DNA from: a virus
Direction: 5' to 3' (one strand)
IMG/VR virus record: IMGVR_UViG_3300030104_000331
Coordinates: 1 to 25,445 of that record
Length of the DNA: 25,445 nt
The first letter of the stretch is position 1; every line of letters starts with the position of its first letter. Below the pieces are notes generated by a model that ran no database searches, was not told the origin of the DNA, and was given only the letters and a program-made list of their open reading frames with translations. The translations under genes and the position numbers were made by a program. This document shows positions 9,114 to 25,445 of the stretch, piece after piece.

Positions 9114-9288
9114 GCTCTGCCATTTTCTTATAAAAGTCTGTTTTTTTCTTAGAGGCTTGGAGATCGTCTTTAAGTATTTTATTCTTTTCTTTATTAGCTC
9201 CAACGACTTTGCCCATCACATAAATGATAGGGATAGCCACTGCTAAAGCTCCAATAATGTAAGTTTTGATCTTACTAAAAATAAACAC
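9049..9288 (-). CDS. Rz-like i-spanin
   Basis: This 79-aa protein has one N-terminal membrane segment (about residues 9-30, TYIIGALAVAIPIIYVMGKV). A short Lys/Glu/Asp-rich helix follows (31-62), and the basic tail ends RLRGNGL. This is the topology of inner-membrane spanins. The start is GTG, overlapping the lysozyme stop (TAGTG), so translation is coupled. It is shorter than lambda Rz but within the range of small marine phage spanins. The identification rests on topology, position directly after a lysozyme, and the out-of-frame lipoprotein gene overlapping its 3' end. A small class II holin-like protein is the main alternative, but the long charged helix and overlapping Rz1 argue against it. 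Confidence 0.82.
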   Translation of the reverse strand: MFIFSKIKTYIIGALAVAIPIIYVMGKVVGANKEKNKILKDDLQASKKKTDFYKKMAEHEKDSITDRPSLIKRLRGNGL

Positions 9289-10019
9289 TAGTGGATGCCC
9301 TCTTTATTGTCTTTCCATCGAGCGTAGGCTGCTAGGGCTATGCCGCCAATTGCACATACTAAGAAGATGGTTTTTAGGCTATCTGCGTAGGCAACTAGCC
9401 CCTGTAGCTGACCTGCCATCTCATTCATTGCTGTAGCCGTACCTGCAATACCTACACCTGCCATAGTTTTACTCTTAACTAGTGACTTGGGTGCTTCTGC
9501 AGTAGGCTTCTGTACCATATCAGGACCACCTTCATCAGATGGCATGGCAGCATCTCTAGAGAAGATTGCGGCTTCTGCAGCCCTACGTCTTGTAAGACCT
9601 TTTAGTGGAGTAAGCTTTCCATCCACTCTAGCTTTATTCCAACGCATGATCTGTTCTGGTACGTCATCGTACAGACCTTTGTTTAGCTTTTTGAGTAGGG
9701 TGGAGCTACGAAAGTTACCTTCACCTAAGTTAAATACAAATGAGGTAAGCGCATCAAATTGTCCTTGAGATAGAGGTACTTGGACGTACTTCTTAACAGC
9801 TTTACCATGCTCTGCTAAGTCTTCAATAAGACGCATCTCACAGTATTCTTTAGTCCACTTAGTACCAGATCGAACACCTTTGGTTGCGCCCCATCCACAA
9901 GTCCACTTTCCTGCAGGACAGCGATATGCATGTACCATATCATCGGGCTGTACTCTGTGTAGCCCTTCAAACTTTTGTACTAGTTTAACACCATCATCTG
10001 AAATTTTTACAGGGTGCAT
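9288..10019 (-). CDS. Endolysin, GH24 lysozyme with C-terminal membrane anchor
   Basis: This 243-aa protein cuts the glycan strands of peptidoglycan. The GH24 (T4/P22 lysozyme) signature is clear: FEG with catalytic Glu18, then AYRCPAGKWTCGWG (31-44), where Cys34 replaces the usual Asp and Thr40 fills the conserved Thr position. QFDALTSFVFNLG (88-99) and GLTRRRAAEAAIF (141-153) follow. Typical phage GH24 enzymes are about 150-170 aa. The extra ~85 residues are a linker (about 157-210) and a hydrophobic segment TIFLVCAIGGIALAAY (217-232) with a charged tail, so the enzyme is probably anchored at the inner membrane by its C-terminus. GGAG lies 6 nt before the ATG. Rz and Rz1 follow directly. 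No separate holin gene is visible in the window. Confidence 0.92.
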   Translation of the reverse strand: MHPVKISDDGVKLVQKFEGLHRVQPDDMVHAYRCPAGKWTCGWGATKGVRSGTKWTKEYCEMRLIEDLAEHGKAVKKYVQVPLSQGQFDALTSFVFNLGEGNFRSSTLLKKLNKGLYDDVPEQIMRWNKARVDGKLTPLKGLTRRRAAEAAIFSRDAAMPSDEGGPDMVQKPTAEAPKSLVKSKTMAGVGIAGTATAMNEMAGQLQGLVAYADSLKTIFLVCAIGGIALAAYARWKDNKEGIH

Positions 10020-12089: not shown

Positions 12090-12401
12090 TTATACTGGTT
12101 TTTCAGGAAAATCATCATCAGTAAGTGAGTTCCAATTTTCATGGGTTGGTAAATCGCGTAGTGCTTGTCGATAGGTAGCCCAAGAAGTCTTAGCTTCGTC
12201 TGTTAGTGGGCTGTCTGGCATCTGTGTCCAATCGCTTGAAGTAAGTAACTCATTACGAGTGTTTCTGTGTTCGGCTGCTAGTCTATCGTTAGCACCATCA
12301 GCCCACTCTTTAATTTCTGCATCTCTGGCTACTTCTTCTTCTTCGGTAAATTGACGCATACCTTGAGGTGTCGCTGCATATCTTGGATTTTCTCTAGACA
12401 T
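12090..12401 (-). CDS. Phage tail assembly chaperone-like protein
   Basis: This 103-aa protein has a C-terminal half that carries the pattern RNELLTSSDWTQMPDSPL (48-65) followed by WATYRQALRDLP (74-85). This is the hallmark of the phage tail assembly chaperone family (Pfam Phage_tail_APC). The N-terminal half is a charged helix (EEEEVARDAEIKEWADGAND). Members sit next to tail-fibre genes and are thought to help fibre folding or assembly; here it directly follows the distal-fibre genes and overlaps the preceding one by 8 nt. GGAG lies upstream of the ATG. The strong promoter at 12057-12085 lies just downstream of its stop. Confidence 0.8.
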   Translation of the reverse strand: MSRENPRYAATPQGMRQFTEEEEVARDAEIKEWADGANDRLAAEHRNTRNELLTSSDWTQMPDSPLTDEAKTSWATYRQALRDLPTHENWNSLTDDDFPEKPV

Positions 12402-15794: not shown

Positions 15795-18467
15795 TTACGA
15801 AAATGCCCATCCAATGGTTGAGTCCACATATCTCAAAGAAAGAACAAGATATGCTGTATCTACTGTTAAATCACTTGCAGAACTCATTATGTTGCTACCG
15901 TTACGACCTATAATACAGTTTGTGTTACCTGCTACTTCGCTAATGCGAACTTCATCCCCAACCGTAGGAGATGATGGAAGCGTTAAAGTTATTGCTGATC
16001 CATTAAGATAATAATGATTATCCTTAGTAGCATTGCTGTTACCTGTAACAACATTAGTTGTAAAACCTACACCAGTTAAACCAGAACCATCACCTGTAAA
16101 AGCCGTTGCAGCTACTGTGCCAGTAATACTTGCACTTGCTGCGTTAATTGCAGCACTTGAAGTAATTGCACCAGTAACATCTAATGGCTTATTCATCGTC
16201 CACTTATCGCCAGTAGAGGCATAATTAAATGTGGCTGAAGCACCGTCTACGGTTAAACCTGCGCCAGATGCGGCTGCTGCGCTTGATGCACCCTTGGCTA
16301 CTGTAATGTTTAAATCATCAACATCTAAGGTAGTTGAATTTATAGTAGTGGTAGTTCCATTTACGATAAGCCCCCCAGTGACTGTGAGATCACCACCAAG
16401 AGATACGTTTCCAGAGGTATCCTCATTAACTAGAGGTATCCAGTTTCCACCATGTGCGTAATAGCCTTTGCCAGTGCCATGCACATGAGCAAACATACCA
16501 TGATATGTTGAAGCTGATGGAAGGTCACTAAGCGCAGAATAAACATTGGAGTACAAGATTTTACCAGTAGTGGTAATATTGTTTGCACCCATATCTATTG
16601 CACCAGTAAACGTACCTCCACTTAGTTGAGCATATCGGGCATCTGATTGTGTCTGTGTATAATGCGAAGATAAACTAAATGTGCCGTAGCTGACGATACC
16701 AACAGAATCTCCAGTAGCAGCCGCTGTAGCCAAAGTTACGCTAGTACCGTTTGAGGCAGTAAAATCTGATGCAGGGTCTAAACGCAAACCATTAAGGAAA
16801 ACATCGCAGAACGTGGGATCGTATGTGGCAGGGAACACTGTCGTAGAACCGCCATATGAACCGCTGCTTGTGCCTACTACATAGTCTTGTCTTTCAGCCG
16901 TACCATTTACTGATGAACCTGCGGCTTGGAAACCACCAGAGCCATACACTTTCATCAGGTTGTTTGTGGTATCAAACCATAAATCCCCAATCGTCAAATT
17001 TGAGCCAGAAGGTGCGGAAGATGCTACAAAGTATGTATCTAAAAAGTTTTGTGAGGCACTGATTGCAGACTGTGCCGTAGTAGCATGAGTAGCTGCATTT
17101 TGTTCTGAGGTAAGGGCTGCAGCCGCACTGTTTGCAGCCGCTGTAGCTGAACCTGCCGCTGCCGAAGCACTACCTGCAACTGAGTCCACATAAGCCTTAT
17201 TTGAAACATGGTCATTGGCAGTCGGAGTAGGTACACCGCTGACAGTATTATTGCCCATCGCAATAGCACCAGACATAGTGCCACCAGAGAGACTAAGCTT
17301 GAGAGCGTCTTGGGTATCTACATAAGATTTGTTTGTGAGGTCTGGTGTATTGGTGGGTGCATAAGTAGTCGTAATCTTTTGGCTACCCATGTTGATAGCA
17401 CCTGTCATAGTGCCACCTGCCAGAGGTAGTTTAGCTGCTATACTATTGGTAACATTAGTGGAGAAGTTTGCATCATCTCCCAGTGCAGCCGCTAGTTCAT
17501 TCAGAGTATCCAAGGCTGCAGGGGCAGAAGCTACAAGGTTTGATACTTCGGTATCAACATACCCCTTAGTCGCAGCATCATTTGTATTAGTCGGGGTAGT
17601 AAGGTTTGTAATAGTACCTGTCGTACCTGCGTCCATGTTCAACGTGCCATTGATAGTGACATCGTTAAAAGTAGATGATCCAGATGAAGCAGTTACGTTA
17701 CCAGTGATCCCACCTGTAAGGTTACCAGTTAGCGTTCCGTTAATGGCTACGTTATTAAAAGTAGATGTACCAGAACTTGCAGTAACATTACCTGCTACAT
17801 TACCAGTAAGATCCCCACTAAAACCACTACTGGCAGCAACCGTTGTACCTGCAATAGAAGTTGGGTTTGTATTACCAATTACGACACCGTTGATAGAGCC
17901 GTTACTTCCAGAGCCACCTACAGTTACTGAGCCTAGCGTAGAGGTTGTGGAGTTTAGTTGAGCTAGTGTACTTAGACCTGTTACGCCCATAGTGCCGCCA
18001 ACCAAGGCATTACCTGCTAGGTGAAAGTCTTTGTACTTCAGGCTAGAGGAGCCAATGTCTATAGTATTGGTTACTGTAGGAGTTATACTAGAGCCAGTAT
18101 TAGCTACAATCTCATGCCATTCGGCTGCAGAAGATGTTGCAGAAGCACAAATAAATATACGTTTTGTAGAAGTATTTATCCAGAGAGATCCCACTGCATA
18201 GCTTTGGGTGCTATCGTCTGTAATTGTAGGATTACTGGTAGTGATATTATTCTTACCGCCTGTACCACCATTAAGTGCAGGAAGTACCCCAGAAACAGAA
18301 GTGGCTAGTGGTATTTTGGGGGCATCCCCTGTAGCACCAGTATGTCCATGCCCAGTTGTAGCTTCAAAAGCCGCTAATAGTTGGTTAAATTCAGCATTTA
18401 GCGGTGGAGCCGTAATATCCGCGCCATTAATAATTTGGCTAACAGATTGGCGAGTGTATCCTGCCAT
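15795..18467 (-). CDS. Modular tail fibre protein
   Basis: This 890-aa protein has an N-terminal attachment region (about 1-60) with LNAEFNQLLAAFEATTGHGH, a motif typical of marine phage fibres. The shaft is built from repeats: GNVTASSG(T/S)STFN units at 226 and 256; (T/N)K(G/S/A)YVD at 300, 379 and 423; and GGT(M/F)(T/S)GAI.MG at 351, 395 and 617. An Ala/Ser-rich helix covers about 430-475. A DVFLNGLRLDPASDFTA domain (about 554-572) follows, then a C-terminal beta region ending RYVDSTIGWAFS. This is the long host-binding fibre attached to the tail tube. It begins 3 nt after the gp10-like gene stop, with AAGG upstream. No intramolecular chaperone (peptidase S74) motif is apparent. Confidence 0.88.
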   Translation of the reverse strand: MAGYTRQSVSQIINGADITAPPLNAEFNQLLAAFEATTGHGHTGATGDAPKIPLATSVSGVLPALNGGTGGKNNITTSNPTITDDSTQSYAVGSLWINTSTKRIFICASATSSAAEWHEIVANTGSSITPTVTNTIDIGSSSLKYKDFHLAGNALVGGTMGVTGLSTLAQLNSTTSTLGSVTVGGSGSNGSINGVVIGNTNPTSIAGTTVAASSGFSGDLTGNVAGNVTASSGTSTFNNVAINGTLTGNLTGGITGNVTASSGSSTFNDVTINGTLNMDAGTTGTITNLTTPTNTNDAATKGYVDTEVSNLVASAPAALDTLNELAAALGDDANFSTNVTNSIAAKLPLAGGTMTGAINMGSQKITTTYAPTNTPDLTNKSYVDTQDALKLSLSGGTMSGAIAMGNNTVSGVPTPTANDHVSNKAYVDSVAGSASAAAGSATAAANSAAAALTSEQNAATHATTAQSAISASQNFLDTYFVASSAPSGSNLTIGDLWFDTTNNLMKVYGSGGFQAAGSSVNGTAERQDYVVGTSSGSYGGSTTVFPATYDPTFCDVFLNGLRLDPASDFTASNGTSVTLATAAATGDSVGIVSYGTFSLSSHYTQTQSDARYAQLSGGTFTGAIDMGANNITTTGKILYSNVYSALSDLPSASTYHGMFAHVHGTGKGYYAHGGNWIPLVNEDTSGNVSLGGDLTVTGGLIVNGTTTTINSTTLDVDDLNITVAKGASSAAAASGAGLTVDGASATFNYASTGDKWTMNKPLDVTGAITSSAAINAASASITGTVAATAFTGDGSGLTGVGFTTNVVTGNSNATKDNHYYLNGSAITLTLPSSPTVGDEVRISEVAGNTNCIIGRNGSNIMSSASDLTVDTAYLVLSLRYVDSTIGWAFS
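17634..17792 (-). repeat. 90-bp tandem repeat in the fibre gene shaft
   Basis: Two adjacent units encode GNVTASSGTSTFNNVAINGT (fibre residues 226-245) and GNVTASSGSSTFNDVTINGT (256-275), with a 30-residue, 90-nt period. The DNA copies have diverged in synonymous positions. They probably extend the fibre shaft and offer homology for length change by recombination. Confidence 0.7.
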
Positions 18468-20877: not shown

Positions 20878-21936
20878 TTATGCAAGGTTGTAGTTTGCAG
20901 TGAACAATGTTTCTGGACGTAAGATCTTGCGCCCATATAAATTTAAGCCCCTATATATATCGGCAAAGGTTGTTGGTGAACGGAAAGTCTCTGTTTTAGC
21001 AATTTGCTGTGCAGTTGCTACCGCAGAGGCATGACCTGCTACCATTACACCAAAGTTGGCTTCAGAACCTGCAGTTGCTGCAGTACCTGGACCAGTACCT
21101 AGGTATGGTAGGTTGTTTGACTTGTAGACTGAGAAGCCTCGAATAGTACCTGGAAGTCTACCATTACGCATCTCATCACCGCCACCGAAGTCGCTGTTAA
21201 TGAGTTTTGATGATTCATCCATTAGTACTTCTGCGAAGACAGGATCTACTACCAACCAACGTCCATCTGTATCCACATTTGCGGAATCCATTAGACGAGC
21301 CATGCGGTTCATAATAGCTAGTGGAGAAGTGATACCACCTGCACCACCACCTGCAGCGATTGGGATAGATGTTACTTCTGAAGTACCACCTACATCTGAT
21401 CCACCGAAGTCTGTGATGTCTAGCTTGTTGGCTGCAAGCAATTCGTCATTACCTGCATTTGAGTCAGCTTTAGTACCGTTTATGTCACCTGAAGCTGCAC
21501 GTCTTGCCCATGAAGAGGGTGTCTTCCAACCTGATAGATAACCTAATACTTCAGCATCCATAGTGTCACGCAGTTTATACCCTGCATGGTCACTAGCTAG
21601 GTCACCAAAAGAAACATGACTGTGAGCTTCCTCGATGTCATCTAACGCAAATTGGAAATAATTTGCTTGATCAACAACCATCGTGAAGTCAGCGTCTGTT
21701 AGGTCTTGAGTTGCCAGTGCCGTACCACGCTCATATGTGGTGACGTTTACGGTTGGCTCCTTGACGATTCGAATCGAGTCACCAAAGTTTGCGATCTCAC
21801 CACTGTAATCAGTGTTGGTAACCGCGTCTACTACAGAAGCCTTTCTCAGGGCTAGCTGGACTTTTTTGGAAAAAATGATAGGCGAGAAGTTACCATTGGG
21901 TAAATTGCTATAGCCTGATGCGCTTGGAAATGCCAT
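20878..21936 (-). CDS. Major capsid protein
   Basis: This 352-aa protein follows the scaffold gene. Recognisable coat features are the N-terminal NGNFSPIIFSKKVQLALRK (14-32), YERGTALATQDLTDADF (69-84), and YFQFALDDIEEAHSHVS (93-109). Then come RDTMDAEVLGYL (123-134), RWLVVDPVFAEVLMD (226-240) and GTIRGFSVYKSNNLP (263-277). These fit the T7/P22-like HK97-fold coat proteins of marine podoviruses. It assembles with the scaffold into the procapsid. Its own near-consensus promoter (22148-22176), a long leader, a strong ribosome site (AGGAG, 8 nt before ATG) and a hairpin behind it all point to high, semi-independent expression. No Ig-like decoration domain is seen. Confidence 0.92.
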   Translation of the reverse strand: MAFPSASGYSNLPNGNFSPIIFSKKVQLALRKASVVDAVTNTDYSGEIANFGDSIRIVKEPTVNVTTYERGTALATQDLTDADFTMVVDQANYFQFALDDIEEAHSHVSFGDLASDHAGYKLRDTMDAEVLGYLSGWKTPSSWARRAASGDINGTKADSNAGNDELLAANKLDITDFGGSDVGGTSEVTSIPIAAGGGAGGITSPLAIMNRMARLMDSANVDTDGRWLVVDPVFAEVLMDESSKLINSDFGGGDEMRNGRLPGTIRGFSVYKSNNLPYLGTGPGTAATAGSEANFGVMVAGHASAVATAQQIAKTETFRSPTTFADIYRGLNLYGRKILRPETLFTANYNLA

Positions 21937-23008: not shown

Positions 23009-24274
23009 TTAGACTGCAAATGCGTATTTCTTTTTCTTCACATATGCAGGGAGGGGTTTGGACACTGGAGATATTTCCATATCTTCATCGTCATTTAAAT
23101 GATCGTCTACCTTCACAGTAGCGACCTCTACATCCATCTCTTCAGATGGAATTTCTTCTGATGCTTCGGCTTCCGCTTCGGCTTCTTCTTGTTTGGTATC
23201 ATGTGAGGCTTGTACTTCGGTGTCCTCAAGATCCTCGCTACTGGATTCACTTGTATGATACCCTGTCTCTTCACAATGCTCACAACCTCTCCCTTCGCAC
23301 ACTGGACACTCAGTAACCTCTTCTTCCACAGCTTGAATTAGTCCGTCAGTGTGCATTGCCATCAGACCCATTTCGGCTTCAGCTTGCATTCCCATAATAT
23401 GTTTAAGTCCGTGATATTTAACTACATGGGCAGGTAAGACATACTCACCACTGCTTAGATTAGCATCGATGTCATCTCGCACATTCTCTGCGGTTGAACC
23501 TAACGGTATAGGGTTACCAGATACTTCGTCATAACCCATCACTCCTACTACTTCTGAATTATCATCAGACTCGCAAAGCATCCCACCGTGGTATAAATTC
23601 ATCTCATCCTCATCTACTAATTCGTTGTTTTGTAATGCTAACTGCACTTCTCTCTCTGCAGGGGAAACAAAGCCATCTCCATCTCTGTCGGCTTCCGCAA
23701 TATCAACCTGTTCTTTGTTATCTGCTATTTCTTTGTCTTCCTCTGATCGACCTTTCATGCCATCGTCCTTTGTAATAAAACCGCCAGTATTAAAATTTTC
23801 TTTTAGGTAGTTGAGATAAGGGAAGGGGCTTTCTATCAGACCTGCTCTTGTGGCAGTGCTTAGACCTAAAGCTACTCCTGTCTTAGCGAGATCCCTGAAT
23901 GACATTTTTTCGTCTGGGTTCTTAAAGTCTTCATACTCATCTAGTTTTTCTTGAGCTTCTTCTGGTGTCCACTCATCAGACATAAGAAGTCTACCGTCCT
24001 CATCTTTGAATGTTTTTATTTCTTGTTCTCTTTGTTCAAGCTGTTGGACTGCACTTTCGCCAAAACCCTTTTCCCAGTTTACTCCTGACTTTTTTGCATT
24101 TTCTATGGCAACTTCTTTGGAGACTTCCTTCCCATCCCAGATAGTAGGTATTAACATTTCTCTGCCATCTATATTAACGATTATGCCTCTTACCGTAGAT
24201 AGAGTACCGTCATCGTTTCTTAGGGCTTTACCATTAGCTATGTTATAAAAATGATGCTGTGTTAAAGGGTCCAT
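23009..24274 (-). CDS. Head-region protein with EF-hand loop and zinc-knuckle-like motif
   Basis: This 421-aa protein of unknown function lies before the scaffold. Domains in order: residues 20-65 (LSTVRGIIVNIDG, MLIPTIWDGK, AIENAKKSG), a small module seen in many marine phage proteins; a charged helix (75-130); and a perfect 12-residue EF-hand calcium loop with Asp196, Asp198, Asp200, Gly201, Ser204 and Glu207. Then come DDIDANLSSGEYVLPAHVVKYHG (267-289), a motif widespread in marine podovirus head-region proteins, and CPVCEGRGCEHC (Cys323, 326, 331, 334), a compact DnaJ-like zinc knuckle. The tail is acidic and the C-terminus basic (VKKKKYAF). The ribosome site is weak (AGG 12 nt before ATG). 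Calcium and zinc binding are inferred from motifs. Confidence 0.75.
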   Translation of the reverse strand: MDPLTQHHFYNIANGKALRNDDGTLSTVRGIIVNIDGREMLIPTIWDGKEVSKEVAIENAKKSGVNWEKGFGESAVQQLEQREQEIKTFKDEDGRLLMSDEWTPEEAQEKLDEYEDFKNPDEKMSFRDLAKTGVALGLSTATRAGLIESPFPYLNYLKENFNTGGFITKDDGMKGRSEEDKEIADNKEQVDIAEADRDGDGFVSPAEREVQLALQNNELVDEDEMNLYHGGMLCESDDNSEVVGVMGYDEVSGNPIPLGSTAENVRDDIDANLSSGEYVLPAHVVKYHGLKHIMGMQAEAEMGLMAMHTDGLIQAVEEEVTECPVCEGRGCEHCEETGYHTSESSSEDLEDTEVQASHDTKQEEAEAEAEASEEIPSEEMDVEVATVKVDDHLNDDEDMEISPVSKPLPAYVKKKKYAFAV

Positions 24275-24329
24275 ATTACTTGTTACCTGTGATAAATTGT
24301 TGTAACTTACACTTAGTTAGGGAGAAATT
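24275..24329. promoter_or_regulatory. Divergent intergenic region
   Basis: These 55 nt separate the divergent starts of the 421-aa gene (minus) and the 50-aa gene (plus). A weak plus-strand promoter can be drawn as TTGTTA (24280-24285), 17 bp, TAACTT (24303-24308). A better extended -10, TGTTATAAA (24241-24249), lies inside the 421-aa gene but has no -35. The plus-strand gene has GGAGA (24321-24325) 5 nt before its ATG. No clear minus-strand promoter is seen. Confidence 0.35.
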
Positions 24330-24482
24330 ATGAAAGAATTAATTTTAGACGAAATTGAAAATGCTATCAAAATGTGTTTACCCGAAGACCAAGATGCGCC
24401 TTTTGAGGTAGATGGTCAGTTAGAGAAAATATCTGAATTAATAGATGCTCTCATTAAGCAGACATCAGACCACCGCGATTAA
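24330..24482 (+). CDS. Small acidic 50-aa protein on the opposite strand
   Basis: This is the only convincing plus-strand gene in the window. It is 50 codons, MKELILDEIENAIK... to TSDHRD, with an ATG and a clear ribosome site (AGGGAGA about 5-10 nt upstream). It fills a 179-nt gap in which I find no minus-strand frame. The product is strongly acidic (14 Asp/Glu against 5 Lys/Arg) and predicted mostly helical, with two amphipathic helices (2-16, 30-44) linked by a Pro/Asp loop. No family is recognised. Its last 29 nt overlap, tail to tail, the end of the upstream minus-strand gene. It may be a separately regulated accessory gene (moron), or its transcript may act antisense to the structural operon. 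Function is unknown. Confidence 0.6.
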   Translation: MKELILDEIENAIKMCLPEDQDAPFEVDGQLEKISELIDALIKQTSDHRD

Positions 24483-25445
24483 ATTTATATCTTACTTGAT
24501 TTACAATCTCCGCATCACCTTTTGCAGGTAGTGGGGTAGGAGCCTCTGATTTCTTCCAGTAGGTTACCCCTTTGGCAAAAACTCTATCTCTGTAGACTGT
24601 AGCAATATCAAATCCTTTGACTGCCTGTCCTGTTCTCATGTCGGTAAAGAGATGTTTGTCTTTTGGATTAATTCCTATTTGAACAACCGTGTCATCCATT
24701 TCATTGAGAACATTTCTTTGAGAGGTAAACTTACCCTGAACAGACATGGCAGGAGTTTTATCTCCTGTTTCAGCTATATTTCTTCTTTGAGTCTGATTTA
24801 CATGAAATGTACCATCTGTTACTGTAACTGCAGGTAAGTATGAGTCAGCCGCACTATAATTAGGAGTTCCATTTTTAATAGGGTGAACAGTCTGTAGTCT
24901 ATTAAATGGTGCAGGTGGACCCTCTGGGTCTATTTTAGAGTTTAGATTTAATCTGATAGATTTCTCTTCACCTTCTTTTACGGCTGCTCCTATTTTAGCA
25001 TTTGCTGAAGGTTTTCCTGCAGTGCTTTTACTTAAATCAATTGCCTCCAAGTCATCTAAATCATAGTTTTTTAATACAACATTAGGATTTTCGATATTAA
25101 ATTGGCTTGTGCCTATTTCTAATTCATCTGCAAAGAGATCCGACATTTGATTAGTCAAAGGTGGATCATTTAGAGGTGGACCACCATTATCACCAAATCG
25201 ATAAATTTTTCTATCGGGGGCTTCACCACCACCAGAGGGAAGACTTCGTAAGTACGCATCTCTGTCAGCTTCTTTAAGAATATTAATATATGTGTTAACT
25301 TCATCAACCATTTGATCATCAACAGGTTGAATAGTATTTGATCTAAATCCTAATGACCTTTGATCATCTTGTCTTTTATATCCACCTGCCCTGCGTTGCT
25401 CAAAAAAGTCTCTCATAAGAAGTTGTAAGGGTGCGTCTTTAAGTT
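24454..25445 (-). CDS. Head-region protein, 5' end probably outside the window
   Basis: An ATG occurs at 25416 (320 aa), but no ribosome site precedes it and the frame stays open through nine more codons to the window edge. The real start is therefore probably further upstream. The protein is hydrophilic with KIYRFGDNGGPPLNDPP, a Lys/Asn-rich middle and a C-terminal region (about 220-310). That region reads VVQIGINPKDKHLFTDMRTGQ, then FDIATVYRDRVFAKGVTYW, resembling from memory a domain of marine phage polyvalent proteins with the pattern 'QIGMNP.RHS.FYD..TG.P'. It precedes the 421-aa gene, so it belongs to the head or head-completion group. Its end overlaps the plus-strand 50-aa gene. The specific role is unknown. 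Confidence 0.6.
   Translation of the reverse strand, partial: LKDAPLQLLMRDFFEQRRAGGYKRQDDQRSLGFRSNTIQPVDDQMVDEVNTYINILKEADRDAYLRSLPSGGGEAPDRKIYRFGDNGGPPLNDPPLTNQMSDLFADELEIGTSQFNIENPNVVLKNYDLDDLEAIDLSKSTAGKPSANAKIGAAVKEGEEKSIRLNLNSKIDPEGPPAPFNRLQTVHPIKNGTPNYSAADSYLPAVTVTDGTFHVNQTQRRNIAETGDKTPAMSVQGKFTSQRNVLNEMDDTVVQIGINPKDKHLFTDMRTGQAVKGFDIATVYRDRVFAKGVTYWKKSEAPTPLPAKGDAEIVNQVRYKFNRGGLMSA

Follow-up and report, generated by a model that had tools for sequence, protein, structure and literature searches.

Does a 50-codon reading frame that stands alone on the plus strand, within a block of structural genes on the minus strand, encode a protein and, if so, what would such a gene do for a phage? 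The question is raised by the linear IMG/VR virus record IMGVR_UViG_3300030104_000331, the whole of which (25,445 bp) is referred to here as the window.

A reversed frame in a late gene block

By sequence, the window is a fragment of a podovirus of the HMO-2011 type. Phages of this group rank with the most abundant in the sea (PMC9038755), and most of their accessory genes have no known role. The late genes of the window are most similar to those of the Roseobacter phages CRP-738 and CRP-235, with ~68-70% DNA identity in the stretches that match, and are arranged in the same order as in these two phages and HMO-2011, namely, capsid, 'dn' (the late gene downstream of the frame under study), portal and terminase, all on one strand. 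In CRP-738, the replication genes occupy one strand, and the structural and packaging genes all lie on the other. Unlike the window, these three deposited isolates do not carry the mini-gene, and the two CRP-738 genes corresponding to its neighbours are 10 nt apart. The window further contains tail-fibre assembly and tail-fibre genes (12090-12401 and 15795-18467, minus strand) and an endolysin-like gene (9288-10019), which are ordinary late genes for phages of this type; an Rfam search of the window gave no match. The features of the locus are the following.

20878-21936, minus strand: major capsid protein (phrog_267 major head protein, E=2.5e-57; 'putative coat protein' in CRP-738), in the same late block
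23009-24274, minus strand: 'dn', downstream late gene, 421 aa, starting head to head with the mini-gene
24275-24329, between the two starts: divergent spacer of 55 nt, common to the mini-gene (plus) and 'dn' (minus), with putative promoter-like words inside
24320-24324, plus strand: ribosome-binding site of the mini-gene, GGGAG, read directly, 5 nt before the ATG
24330-24482, plus strand: mini-gene, 50 aa, MKELILDEIENAIKMCLPEDQDAPFEVDGQLEKISELIDALIKQTSDHRD, with homologues in 21 other contigs, third-position bias and pN/pS evidence
24454-24482, both strands: tail-to-tail overlap of the mini-gene and 'up', 29 nt
24454-25443, minus strand: 'up', upstream neighbour, following the portal genes and cut off by the window edge (25443+)

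The frame runs from an ATG at 24330 to a TAA stop ending at 24482. Its setting is as the original prediction had described it: the ribosome-binding site is good (GGGAG is kept in the close relative L001, and L003 has AGGGGA), stops close all three minus-strand frames in the 179-nt hole between the minus-strand ORFs (24275-24453), and the frame overlaps its neighbour tail to tail. The last of these arrangements recurs, with an overlap of 7-31 nt by the same measure, at every locus where it is visible. The other plus-strand ORFs of at least 100 aa in the window all lie opposite long minus-strand ORFs. The length of the frame alone proves little because, when the 208-nt stretch is shuffled with its dinucleotides preserved, 0.85% of the shuffles contain an ORF on the plus strand that starts with ATG and reaches 50 aa or more. 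In base composition, the frame has a GC content of 33% outside the overlap, against 42% and 37% in the neighbours and 41% in the window, measured on what is a very short sequence for such a comparison.

Homologues and selection on the protein

Searches with the mini-protein, and with alignments, as queries recovered homologues in 21 other IMG/VR contigs (50-70 aa, 32-100% identity). The protein is identical in L001 and L002, 90% identical in L003 and 54-56% identical in L025, L026, L032 and L033 (type 1), and type-2 proteins of 69-70 aa, with 32% identity, are encoded in L043, L065-L075 and L109-L111. The gene occupies the same site on the same strand, tail to tail with a member of the 'up' family, in 20 of the 21 contigs, those that reach far enough. 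All copies examined are open over their full length, with no internal stops or frameshifts, and conservation extends beyond the overlap.

The substitutions are of the kind expected of a coding sequence. In five disjoint pairs, with the antisense overlap excluded, codon positions 1, 2 and 3 differ 23, 11 and 48 times, respectively (p=2e-6), and pN/pS is 0-0.41, well below 1, for the mini-gene pairs with more than two differences; outside the overlap, the window and L001 differ by 5 synonymous changes and no nonsynonymous one. The codon-position bias, together with pN/pS below 1, identifies the plus strand as the coding one, and by this substitution pattern the mini-gene is a genuine protein-coding gene under purifying selection, as had been proposed for the lone plus-strand frame. 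The chance that it is instead a spurious ORF, or a conserved DNA element that yields no protein, is negligible: the length of the frame, which is not very rare among shuffles, would allow this, but the 21 further copies and the codon-position bias rule it out.

The family has so far gone uncatalogued. No homologue of the mini-protein was found in 50,697 phage records, where the only matches, to phage helicases, had E values of at least 8, and a pattern scan of GTDB species genomes with a profile gave none either, for the mini-gene or for the neighbour gene. Searches of Pfam, PHROG, NCBIfam, PADLOC and PDB sequences returned no family match (best E 0.011-0.8). The mini-proteins constitute a new small protein family, which such libraries have missed because its members are short, encoded in reverse and lacking in the isolates.

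An optional insertion with an exchangeable leader

Where the mini-gene is present, the stop of 'up' and the next late gene are 180-248 nt apart, except in L026; where it is missing, its two neighbours are directly adjacent, in most cases with -1 to 10 nt between them (0-2 nt in L027-L031, L034, L036-L039 and L041). Because the neighbours are adjacent in the relatives that lack it, the mini-gene is an insertion of ~180-250 nt in the late operon. Its distribution is patchy among 'up' relatives at 68-90% identity. In L008, L013 and L015, 'dn' genes of 76-90% identity, including the closest 'dn' relative (L008, 90%), lie behind an unrelated gene of the 909-aa type across a gap of 10 nt, with no mini-gene. 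The more distant 'up' relatives L046, L047 and L051 show other arrangements. This insertion-like presence and absence agrees with the original suggestion of an accessory gene, and the natural absence in relatives suggests that the gene is dispensable.

How often the gene was gained is a separate matter. The best topology of the 'up' tree, built without the last residues of 'up', needs at least 4 changes of mini-gene state, yet a single clade of carriers is not rejected (p-AU 0.35), so multiple independent gains, as opposed to a single origin with losses, are not established. The site is variable in other respects: further small genes are inserted there in L026, and in G001 (IMGVR_UViG_3300046167_000389, 46046-47798) several extra small ORFs lie between the mini-gene and the capsid gene, a place taken in the window by 'dn' and a gene of 260 aa.

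The spacers between the divergent starts are 30-56 nt long and fall into few types, which do not follow the type of the protein. The type-1 loci L025 and L026 share their leader and 'dn' with the type-2 loci L065-L068, and the type-1 loci L032 and L033 share theirs with the type-2 loci L070-L074; the shared identity extends about 10 nt into the mini-gene frame. By these comparisons, the leader and 'dn' have been exchanged independently of the mini-protein, and, since the same leader and 'dn' are combined with different mini-proteins, recombination at the start of the mini-gene is suggested. We envisage a gene that was inserted, against the direction of transcription, in the head and packaging end of an HMO-2011-type late operon, with the portal-adjacent gene on one side and the following late gene on the other, and that relatives may since have acquired, lost and swapped.

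With the late operon transcribed the opposite way, the mini-gene would need a plus-strand transcription start of its own within the divergent spacer, which would allow the protein to be made at a different time than the virion proteins. The spacer of the window contains a weak promoter-like pair of words on the plus strand, TTGTTA (24280-24285) and TAACTT (24303-24308), 17 nt apart, and the corresponding spacing, TTG-N20-TA or TTG-17-TAnnn[TA], recurs across the divergent leaders. Nevertheless, no host sigma-70 promoter stands out at this place: the leaders do not score above shuffles, 13-27% of which do as well for the window's branch, and the TTG coincides, in most of the leaders, with the Shine-Dalgarno sequence of the next gene read in reverse complement. 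Past the end of the mini-gene, a search for intrinsic terminators yielded nothing convincing, the single weak stem of 5 pairs at 24533-24546 (shuffle mean 0.3) not being kept, by eye, in L001. Since no convincing terminator follows, the transcript would run antisense into the 3' end of 'up', in line with the original prediction.

Such a layout brings to mind regulation of late transcription, in which plus-strand transcription from the spacer would dampen or time the late genes, antisense to 'up' and by interference with 'dn', and the protein would be of secondary importance or an autoregulator. The obligatory run into 'up' and the head-to-head starts, 30-56 nt apart, fit this proposal, as do the dyads TTAATTA-6-TAATTAA and TTAACTA-6-TAGTTAA, possibly an operator or a hairpin over the start region, which lie within 30 nt before the ATG in the leaders of L032, L033, L072 and L073 and of L075. 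There is also a precedent, the ant moron of P22, which is thought to influence late transcription (PMC2629481). However, selection acts on the protein, which matches no DNA-binding profile, the dyads occur neither in the window's branch nor in leader type A, and no terminator is found. We consider a primarily regulatory unit quite improbable, and a lesser alternative than the involvement of 'up' discussed below.

The mini-protein and its probable role

The mini-protein was predicted to be helical, and the AlphaFold2 model (eight sequences) accords with this, folding it into a two-helix hairpin (helices 2-16 and 25-48; pLDDT 85, pTM 0.57); the model of a type-2 protein is a similar hairpin with an additional low-confidence tail. 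Foldseek searches gave only insignificant matches (best E 1.3 in the PDB and 3.6 among viral structures).

The strong acidity that had been reported holds for the window protein (14 D/E vs 5 K/R, net charge -9, pI 4.21) but not as a trait of the family: a charge of -9 is confined to the window's branch, L075 has -8, and for all 12 other copies outside the branch for which the charge was computed it is -3 to -6, with 7-10 K/R over 58-70 aa in most relatives. A DNA mimic or another charge-driven inhibitor, which had been suggested and to which a charge of -9 in 50 aa would be well suited, is thus very improbable given the mild acidity of most of the family. The conserved positions include neutral A12, P18 and P24 and basic K14 besides acidic D7, E8, E19, E32 and D39. 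The net charges of most relatives do not fit a conserved strongly negative surface, and on this ground DNA mimicry is rejected as a family property.

What the predictions do point to is a soluble product of about 6-8 kDa, 5.7 kDa in the case of the window, which is a two-helix hairpin with no catalytic features. A protein of this kind would most likely act by binding a single protein of the host or the phage, in the manner of small phage inhibitors or of exclusion or anti-defence proteins, presumably to the benefit of the phage during infection; host takeover is a possibility. Taking these considerations together, we find it likely that the frame represents a genuine and optional moron-type gene, reversed, with its own start and with a hairpin product that binds a protein of the host or the phage. 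A more specific proposal, namely, that this new helical-hairpin family is a reversed cassette at a fixed head-module site and is aimed at a core or defence protein of the marine bacteria that HMO-2011-type phages infect, is tentative at best.

Independent transcription belongs to the original definition of morons, in HK97 and HK022. The mini-gene is probably a moron in a wider sense: it is inserted between genes that are adjacent in relatives and is patchily distributed, but it has no recognizable terminator of the intrinsic type and no promoter scoring above shuffles, which speaks against the moron reading. Nowadays the term is applied to simple insertions of genes as well, and the morons of SPP1, including ORFs in the head module, are mostly under 100 aa (PMC6316719). 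Like these, the mini-gene is short and additional to the core late genes, two of which it separates and which are adjacent in some relatives lacking it. It differs from morons as first defined in that neither a promoter nor a terminator is evident, in opposing the strand of the operon and in belonging to a family that is unmatched in the libraries searched. The ant moron of P22-like phages likewise consists of one or more accessory genes, of variable content, at a single site of the late operon (PMC2629481), whereas the mini-gene is a single gene located between the portal-adjacent and pre-capsid genes and has no repressor or antirepressor homologue. In phage Fc02, olg1 and gene 10 are oppositely oriented overlapping genes that also encode small proteins, one with exclusion activity (PMC9936078), although their overlap is extensive, as opposed to 29 nt here, and no sequence relation is known. 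The family is new but belongs to an ordinary, known kind of phage gene. Its proteins are small, clonable and under selection, and the cassette site is fixed, which makes the family a tractable choice when screening for interactions with the host.

The main alternative to the moron reading stems from the constancy of the neighbourhood. All 20 copies with a visible flank lie tail to tail with the 'up' family, while the other neighbour varies, an association that counts against a free-standing moron and would also fit a dedicated partner of the 'up' product (a chaperone, an immunity protein or an antitoxin-like protein) serving a portal-adjacent cargo. Proteins that are small, acidic and helical often act as partners of large variable proteins encoded next to them. 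The 'up' protein is 749 aa long in L001, and its C-terminal part matches PF25735 (Phage L5 gp82) and phrog_586. However, 'up' genes with the same C-terminal region, 70-77% identical, lack the mini-gene in L027-L031, L034 and L036-L041; conversely, in L110 (3429-5030, minus strand) and L111, 'up' is shortened to 534 aa, which correspond to residues 15-488 of the 749, so that the PF25735-like C-terminal third is lost, and the mini-gene is still present tail to tail. Moreover, partners normally share a strand. The mini-gene thus does not consistently co-occur with the effector domain, which weakens the case for an immunity protein or antitoxin in particular, and we regard a dedicated partner of 'up' as unlikely.

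The portal-adjacent slot itself (24454-25443+ in the window; 11304-13811 in L004) carries different large proteins across relatives: the PF25735 type in the window, the 909-aa type in L008 and a DUF7178 protein in CRP-738, the last with a weak match to a phosphorothioation-related methyltransferase model.
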